Shown here: piece after piece, positions 2,093 to 7,065 of the stretch
Position numbering within the stretch: the stretch's first letter is position 1
Layout of the letters: every line of letters starts with the position of its first letter
Source: Archaeoglobaceae archaeon
Lineage (GTDB): Archaea > Halobacteriota > Archaeoglobi > Archaeoglobales > Archaeoglobaceae
NCBI GenBank assembly: GCA_027064525.1
Contig: JAMOPJ010000027.1
Location: 1-41,821 of the forward strand
Reading direction: 5' to 3'
Length of the DNA: 41,821 bases
Made by a program: the position numbers and the translations under genes
Notes under the pieces: generated by a model
The model's input: only the letters and a program-made list of their open reading frames with translations
Database searches by the model: none
Told to the model about the DNA's origin: nothing

Positions 2093-2191
2093 TTTCCCAC
2101 CAAGAATGCATAAGTGGGTATAATATTTGAATGTTTCCCACTCCACATGCTTTCCTTGAAAATTTTCTACGGGATTGGCAAGTGATTATTG

Positions 2192-2467
2192 ATGGAAGAG
2201 ATATCTGTTAAGGTTCTGGGAGATTTGGTTAGGATTCTAAAGGTGAGAGATGAGGACGTTCCGAAGCTCGTCAGGCTCTACTTAGCTATCGAGCTGTATA
2301 GAGAGGGAAAGGTCAGCTTAGGAAAAGCCGCTGAGATTGCTGGAGTTTCTAAGTGGGAAATTATGGAAATTTTGGCATCTAAGAATATTCCGATACAATA
2401 TTATGTAGAAGATTTGGAGAAGGACATAAAGACTTTGGAAGAGTTATTATTGATTTTGACGTTCTAA
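2192..2467 (+). CDS. UPF0175-family antitoxin-like protein
   Basis: The centre of this 91-residue protein, ELYREGKVSLGKAAEIAG, is the helix-turn-helix signature of UPF0175 proteins, which are usually antitoxins for PIN (DUF3368) toxins. The stretch NIPIQYYVEDLEKDI is the family's C-terminal end. The N-terminus (EEISVKVLGDLVRILKVRDED) is not the ribbon-helix-helix seen in the paralogue at 3022-3321. No toxin gene lies on this strand on either side, so it appears to be an orphan. ATG 2192 is chosen over TTG 2189; both are possible. Confidence 0.75.
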   Translation: MEEISVKVLGDLVRILKVRDEDVPKLVRLYLAIELYREGKVSLGKAAEIAGVSKWEIMEILASKNIPIQYYVEDLEKDIKTLEELLLILTF

Positions 2468-2488: not shown

Positions 2489-2917
2489 CTAATGTTTAAA
2501 TGTTGGTAAATCATTTTTTATGGTTTCCCAGACGATGGGCAAGCTGACGCCAAAATAGGAGTGAATTAGTTTATCCCTTATACCAGCTATTGCTTTCCAA
2601 GGGATTTCAGGGTATTTATCCTTAATATCTTCAGGTATGTTTTTGGCAGCTTCACCTATGATTTCCAAATTTCGAATGACTGCATTTTTTGTCTTTTCAT
2701 CGTGAATAAATTCGTCGTAGCTCATTCCTCCTGTATAACTCTCAATCTTCGCAATAGCTTCGAGTATATCTTCTTTTTTCAGCTGAGGATAGTTTTCGAG
2801 AATTTCCTCATAGCTCCAACCATTCGCAAGTAATTCAAGTATAAATTCGACAGTTATCCTTGTTCCTTTAATTACTGGCTTTCCTCCGCAAATGTTTGGA
2901 TTTATCTCTATCGGCAT
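2489..2917 (-). CDS. DUF433 antitoxin domain fused to HepT-like (DUF86/HEPN) toxin domain
   Basis: Residues 1-55 are a DUF433 domain (INPNICGGKPVIKGTRITV, then ILELLANGWSYEEILENYPQL). From about residue 49 the protein becomes a HepT-type HEPN RNase: IESYTGGMSYDEF, NAVIRNLEIIGEAAKN, YPEIPWKAIAGIRD, and the R-x4-H-x-Y motif at R114/H119/Y121. The segment EDILEAI at 49-55 fits both the end of DUF433 and the first helix of HepT, so the join is seamless. DUF433 normally pairs with a DUF5615 PIN-like toxin and HepT with an MNT nucleotidyltransferase; neither partner is adjacent. GGTGAT precedes the ATG. Function is uncertain: a self-inhibited toxin, or a product of a deletion. Confidence 0.82.
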   Translation of the reverse strand: MPIEINPNICGGKPVIKGTRITVEFILELLANGWSYEEILENYPQLKKEDILEAIAKIESYTGGMSYDEFIHDEKTKNAVIRNLEIIGEAAKNIPEDIKDKYPEIPWKAIAGIRDKLIHSYFGVSLPIVWETIKNDLPTFKH

Positions 2918-3021
2918 GATATCACCTTATCCCTCCTAACCCTTATAAACGTTCCTAGGCTTTATAAGCTCTATAATCATCAAAGTCTCATCTTTTTCGA
3001 GCCTTTATGCTTATACAATAG

Positions 3022-3321
3022 TCATTTCGTTGCCCAAACTATATCAACTTCAAGATCTTCCAAGTCATATCTAAACGGTATGTTCCTCTTCTTTAGCTCT
3101 TCTAAAGCTTCCCTATACGTTATCCCCGCTATTTCAGCCGCTTTCCATAGGGAGACTTTACCCTCTCGATATAGTTCCAAGGCCTTTTTAATTTTGTATT
3201 CTTTGAGCGATTCTGCTATAAGCTTACGAATAAGCGTTCCTTTGTCTATTCCTTCCTCTTTGCTCAATTTCTCAATCTCTTCAACCATATCCTTCGGCAG
3301 TCTGACTGATGTGGTTACCAT
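3022..3321 (-). CDS. Ribbon-helix-helix plus UPF0175 antitoxin
   Basis: The N-terminus MVTTSVRLPKDMVEEIEKL and GIDKGTLIRKLIAESLKEY form a ribbon-helix-helix DNA-binding unit. The C-terminus ALELYREGKVSLWKAAEIAG with NIPFRYDLEDLE is a UPF0175 domain, close to the paralogue at 2192-2467. UPF0175 antitoxins are normally followed by a PIN (DUF3368) toxin. Here the next gene on the strand, 104 nt on, is the DUF433-HepT fusion and no PIN gene is visible. The ATG at 3321 is preferred to the GTG at 3327. Likely an orphan or reassorted antitoxin. Confidence 0.82.
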   Translation of the reverse strand: MVTTSVRLPKDMVEEIEKLSKEEGIDKGTLIRKLIAESLKEYKIKKALELYREGKVSLWKAAEIAGITYREALEELKKRNIPFRYDLEDLEVDIVWATK

Positions 3322-3360
3322 CTTCACAATTACATCTTAAGTTTTCGGTTTGACAAACAG

Positions 3361-6828: not shown

Positions 6829-6942
6829 GCCCGAACTCGTCGAATGTCTAAGAATATAAATGTTAAGATTATGGATTAAAGATGACCGTTATTGTTTCAG
6901 CCGATCACTAGGCAGCATACCTTTTAAATATTTAAATTAGAA

Positions 6943-7003
6943 GGTCGTGACTCCACATTGTGTGTGATTTAAATAATACCATCAACAGTATTGCAACACC
7001 ACC
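6943..7003 (+). repeat. 61-bp dispersed repeat, copy A
   Basis: A 61-base stretch that recurs in the same orientation at 41176-41236 with about 55 matches. The best conserved block contains TGATTTAAATAATACCATC. It sits in the gap before the FilR1-type regulator. Its AT-rich core could act as a TATA element, but the second copy does not precede a rightward gene, so a mobile or structural origin is as likely. Confidence 0.8.
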
Positions 7004-7065
7004 AATTAGAAAATATAAATAAAAATAAAACGTAAATGCTATAAAGGTCATTGCAAAATGCTAAC

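Follow-up and report, generated by a model that had tools for sequence, protein, structure and literature searches.

Type VII toxin–antitoxin (TA) systems pair the toxin HepT (PF01934) with MntA, and the RX4HXY motif of HepT contains the predicted catalytic arginine and histidine together with the tyrosine that is the MNT modification site in these systems (PMC7641770, PMC11586414). Makarova et al. (PMC2701414) described HEPN-MNT as a strictly unique pair apart from domain fusions; the same work covers DUF433 (COG2442), the antitoxin of PIN/DUF5615-type pairs, and paREP1 of Pyrobaculum, an RHH-HEPN fusion. In its passages on the DUF86 group, the HEPN census (PMC3710099) names MNT, REase and methylase fusions, with no DUF433 fusion among those named there. 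Beyond the 2009 and Synechocystis papers, the one further paper found to contain both DUF433 and HEPN mentions the two separately. Here we analyze a window, the whole 41,821-nucleotide stretch of an Archaeoglobaceae archaeon (GCA_027064525.1, contig JAMOPJ010000027.1), in which DUF433 and HepT/HEPN domains form a single in-frame fusion (Table 1).

The DUF433–HepT reading frame and its predicted fold

The fusion ORF encodes 142 residues on the minus strand, running from an ATG at 2917 down to a TAG at 2489, and holds both Pfam domains in a single frame, as a sequence-only reading of this DNA had proposed. PF04255 (DUF433) matches residues 3–56 with 97 bits against a cut-off of 23.6 (E = 5.5e-28; profile positions 1–54 of 56), and PF01934 (HepT-like) matches residues 51–141 with 112 bits against a cut-off of 23.5 (E = 1.6e-32; profile positions 1–114 of 120). 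Both scores lie far above their cut-offs, and the domains are as recognisable as that reading had claimed; their spans overlap solely in the EDILEAI segment. The NCBIfam HepT_toxin model, stricter than that of Pfam, gives 44 bits, below its cut-off of 60. Residues 1–55 share 91–93% protein identity with free-standing DUF433s of the same family (93% with that of genome G014), and the HepT half shares 81% with the nearest free-standing HepT (genome G017), so the domain matches are no chance resemblance. The fusion keeps all columns that are invariant among the aligned HepT relatives, and the RX4HXY motif, described earlier as intact, is indeed so (R114, H119, Y121).

Table 1. Features of the fusion locus, in window coordinates
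Feature	Position	Strand	Basis
Convergent UPF0175 antitoxin-like gene	2189..2467	+	same gene and orientation beside the G017 HepT
Untranslated HepT remainder, IERILKELERQNQ then TAA	2447..2488	-	aligns with the G017 HepT tail
TAG stop truncating the HepT C-terminal helix	2489..2491	-	alignment; no PylS over cut-off
Fusion ORF, DUF433 N-terminal part and HepT/HEPN in frame	2489..2917	-	ORF and Pfam
HepT-like RNase domain, residues 51-141	2495..2767	-	Pfam; DNA 83% to G017:C6 HepT
RX4HXY motif, R114-DKLI-H119-S-Y121	2555..2578	-	sequence; roles from PMC7641770, PMC11586414
DUF433 domain, residues 3-56	2750..2911	-	Pfam; DNA 82% to G018:C65, protein 93% to G014
Junction tract, codons E49-I55 (EDILEAI), shared GATATNCTCGAAGCTATT	2753..2773	-	DNA comparison
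Upstream spacer with TATA-like TTTATAAG; a Shine-Dalgarno-like GGTGAT closely precedes the ATG	2918..3021	-	promoter read by eye
RHH-UPF0175 antitoxin-like gene	3022..3327	-	relatives G018, G023, G009 compared

The HepT domain of the sequence-only reading stands in its fold match and motif, but it is C-terminally truncated by the TAG, which that reading had overlooked. The stop removes 13 HepT codons whose sequence is still present beyond it: the frame after the TAG, IERILKELERQNQ-TAA, aligns with VERILRELEQDQ-TGA of G017, the nearest HepT, and the relative L041 has QVESILKDLRD, with Q at the position of the window's TAG. The good preservation of this tail suggests that the nonsense codon may be young. 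Decoding of the TAG as pyrrolysine was ruled out: the best match to pyrrolysyl-tRNA synthetase in the organism's own genome reached 27 bits against a cut-off of 178, and the TAG is therefore taken as a stop.

In the AlphaFold2 model of the fusion (mean pLDDT 87.8; structure models are of monomers), residues 45–62 form one helix that both closes the DUF433 domain and serves as helix 1 of HepT. Its counterpart in the G017 HepT model, residues 6–24, has the same span; helix 1 has thus been rebuilt and not shortened, and its loss could be ruled out. With this helix rebuilt in register, the fusion protein is predicted still to fold. The last HepT helix, 28 residues long in the parent (88–115), is about 12 residues shorter in the fusion, where it ends at residue 141. 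Loss of the HepT N-terminus may not matter, since S. oneidensis HepT itself begins close to the junction position. A Foldseek search with the fusion model returned the HepT structures 5yep and 6m6u and the DUF433 structure 2ga1 (rmsd 0.5 over 44 columns for the latter), all at E > 0.01 with a probability of 1.00.

Compared with G017, dN/dS is 0.22 for the HepT half, 0.16 for the neighbouring UPF0175 gene and 0.19, over 9 codons, for the tail beyond the stop. The DUF433 half is better conserved than the HepT half, with pN 0.043 and pS 0.76, a mark of strong purifying selection acting mostly in pre-fusion time. Since these comparisons mostly cover the time before the fusion, they indicate that the parents were constrained and are not evidence for constraint on the chimera.

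Mosaic DNA and missing partner genes

The window is DUF433-gene-like to the left of the junction and HepT-like to the right. The first 165 bp of the fusion are 82% identical to the free-standing DUF433 gene of G018 and 77% to that of G014; from the junction onward, 82.6% identity to the G017 HepT locus extends over ~598 bp, past the HepT stop and into the convergent UPF0175 gene, which is common to the window and G017 and makes the HepT side syntenic. The two DNA homologies overlap by ~18 bp, in the EDILEAI codons only (window, GAAGATATACTCGAAGCTATTGCG; G018, GAGAACATACTCGAAGCTATTAGC; G014, GAAGATATTCTCGAGGCTATAAGC; G017, TACGATATTCTCGAAGCTATTGCA), which places the junction inside the shared segment where it had been proposed. 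Flanking differences, with an ATA codon as in G018, narrow the crossover to CTCGAAGCTATT at 2753–2764, a stretch identical in the window, the G018 DUF433 gene and the G017 HepT gene. At this tract, the G014 DUF433 and G017 HepT genes have 16 of 18 bases in common, in register (DILEAI on DILEAI). In a control of 25 codon shuffles of a DUF433–HepT pair, the best agreement anywhere was 15 of 18, a modest statistic; the in-register position of the common tract is the stronger point. At the level of sequence, the mosaic match to a DUF433 gene and a HepT locus shows that the fusion is chimeric in origin and bears out the earlier suggestion of recombination at a short homology.

The DUF5615 and MNT partners, which the sequence-only reading had supposed lost, are both absent at the locus and both present beside the separate genes of relatives. 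A DUF5615-type gene lies directly downstream of DUF433 in G018 and G014; in G017, MNT lies directly upstream of HepT and overlaps the HepT start. In the fusion, HepT sequence follows DUF433 in place of the DUF5615/PIN-like toxin gene, no MNT gene lies directly upstream of HepT, and DUF5615 has no match anywhere in the organism's own genome. Among the protein matches of 55 family genomes, there was neither an unrecombined DUF433-DUF5615-MNT-HepT array nor a DUF433 adjoining MNT-HepT.

The genome's own MNTs are located on other contigs. Two genes of the same subfamily, on contigs C37 and C36, are 52% and 47% identical, respectively, to the G017 MNT. The C37 MNT adjoins an open HepT; the C36 MNT, itself open, adjoins a frameshifted HepT paralogue (L055, G000:C36:27248-27807) with residues lost in the region of the catalytic motif (VRNIIIH), and is an antitoxin without an intact toxin. 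The HepT genes of relatives L023, L027 and L030 are broken by frameshifts or stops, so HepT decay looks common in the family.

Loss is also seen upstream of the fusion. A DUF3368-type toxin gene directly follows the RHH-UPF0175 gene in G018, G023 and G009 (the one toxin scored gave a DUF3368 match of 23 bits, below the cut-off of 27.3). In the window, homology ends at the stop codon of the RHH-UPF0175 gene, so the DUF3368-type toxin is missing; the spacer at 2918–3021 contains no remnant of such a toxin and has no homologue in the loci compared. Between 1500 and 4850, the window is a patchwork of a VapBC-like pair, two UPF0175 genes, the fusion and an EVE-domain gene, in which the best match of each piece is a different family genome; pieces of the window 1.5–4.8 kb long find their matches in different genomes, each on another contig. 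Antitoxins outnumber toxins in this patchwork, as expected where modules decay. Elsewhere in the window, a ~100-bp element at 6927–7029 has 87–91% identical copies on the genome's own contigs C21, C45 and C2 and no match in Rfam.

Other DUF433–DUF86 fusions, which the sequence-only reading had proposed to look for, did not emerge: no second case was found among the matches listed for some 1,270 genomes and for plasmids, phages and viral contigs. One of these searches ran without a positive control, and distant fusions with another linker, or weak scorers, could have escaped. Protein searches of genomes from the family (55), the phylum (393) and the phyla of three other hits (398, 19 and 395), and of GTDB contigs, IMG/VR, PLSDB and INPHARED, turned up DUF433 or HepT solely as separate genes. 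In the 55 same-family genomes no other match spans both halves. The apparent spans of both halves in G324 (12–137, with stops), L048 and L049 were traced to ordinary HepT or DUF433 genes. A match on a Delftia plasmid (24–140) is annotated as a DUF86 protein.

Origin of the fusion and its present state

We consider it most probable, at roughly 60%, that the fusion is a recent recombination chimera that is now a decaying, non-toxic relic. In the proposed event, two ancestral modules, DUF433-DUF5615 and MNT-HepT, were joined by the loss of everything that separated a short tract in one from its match in the other: the codons for EDILEAI in the DUF433 helix and those for DILEAI in helix 1 of HepT. 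The HepT frame would since have been driven by the start signals of DUF433 and its first ~50 codons, with both partner genes gone. The adjacent starting order and the deletion, as opposed to an insertion or conversion, are inferred. A later nonsense codon took away the last 13 HepT codons. Once the cognate MNT was lost, variants would be expected to persist only if their HepT part is harmless, and with the antitoxin gone, the C-terminal helix cut and the surroundings decaying, the protein is most likely a toxin no longer. The relic is also supported by the DUF3368-type toxin lost beside RHH-UPF0175, by the frameshifted C36 HepT and by the occurrence of the fusion in one genome only. Against it stand an ORF that is otherwise open, the retained invariant HepT residues and start signals that look intact, along with the closeness in dN/dS of the HepT half to the UPF0175 gene, of which the underlying divergence is perhaps mostly pre-fusion, the strong purifying selection seen in the DUF433 half, with the same caveat, the start of S. 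oneidensis HepT near the junction position, and the lack of an intermediate DUF433-DUF5615-MNT-HepT array in the family genomes compared.

The intact catalytic residues and modifiable tyrosine would also suit a working hybrid, a doubtful reading in which DUF433 contributes steric masking, DNA binding or both, and the HepT RNase is checked by the fused domain or by the C36 or C37 MNT AMPylating Y121; self-inhibition and control by MNT in trans had also been raised in the sequence-only reading. The confident model with both folds on one shared helix, its Foldseek matches (5yep/6m6u and 2ga1), the same-subfamily MNT genes, of which that on C36 is without an intact HepT partner, and the precedent of the Pyrobaculum paREP1 RHH-HEPN fusions (PMC2701414) all speak for it; however, the long C-terminal helix lacks its final 12 residues, HEPN helices 1 and 6, the MNT docking sites according to PMC11586414, are altered, the genome's MNTs are just 47–52% identical to the G017 MNT, and the collections searched hold no second instance. 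The nonsense codon in HepT and the decay of neighbouring TA modules favour the relic over such a hybrid. It is unlikely that the protein is a functional cross-type hybrid, with a HEPN RNase and a type II DNA-binding antitoxin domain joined via the shared helix and under the control of the fused domain or of an MNT acting in trans; if true, a helix that is similar by convergence can be the site at which two unrelated TA families recombine and yield a new regulator. That the chimera acts through its DUF433 half alone seems quite improbable, whether this half is an orphan repressor that binds DNA or an anti-addiction antitoxin that counters DUF5615-type toxins as they come in, HepT serving in either role as a passive tail for dimerisation. 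The better conservation of this half and the neighbouring UPF0175 genes, likewise orphan antitoxins, fit this idea, but the genome has no DUF5615 gene to neutralise, and what DUF433 has lost is its C-terminal stretch, some 20 residues beyond EDILEAI; in antitoxins, such C-terminal tails often bind the toxin.

An assembly artefact that joined two separate loci at the common tract is highly improbable, even though the assembly is a draft of 53 contigs, a contig end is 2.5 kb away and the pieces around the site match different genomes. The sequence-only reading had allowed for such a join between genes that are separate in relatives: the separate genes are found there, but the leftover halves that a mis-join should have placed elsewhere are absent, with no DUF5615 and no G017-like MNT in an assembly that is 99.99% complete. 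Moreover, the exact tract common to the relatives of the two parents, ~12 bp, is short for an assembler, and the 3' side is syntenic with G017.

Comparison with known toxin–antitoxin systems

As a probable relic seen once, the fusion has modest general weight. It offers a case of TA gene shuffling resolved at the DNA level: one can name the types of the parental genes, the tract at which they crossed over and both partners that were lost. Because HEPN-MNT has been regarded as a unique pair (PMC2701414), the capture of HEPN by another antitoxin family bears on the exchange of parts between TA systems; it also bears on the fate of a toxin after loss of its antitoxin.

The fusion is like the type VII HepT toxin in its fold, RX4HXY motif and all invariant residues, with the G017 protein nearest at 81%, and differs from it in that the N-terminal ~11 residues are swapped for DUF433, the C-terminal helix is short and no MNT gene adjoins. 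Residues 1–55 are nearly those of a free-standing DUF433 antitoxin (91–93% identity), yet the ~20 residues with which such an antitoxin ends are missing, as is the DUF5615 toxin gene, and the protein carries a HEPN domain instead. Pyrobaculum paREP1 is likewise an archaeal fusion of a DNA-binding, antitoxin-type domain to HEPN (PMC2701414), but its domain is RHH and its family lineage-expanded, whereas the domain here is DUF433 and the case a single one. HEPN fused to a DNA-binding domain was known before; the DUF433–HepT fusion is so far a one-off, with no second case in the collections searched.
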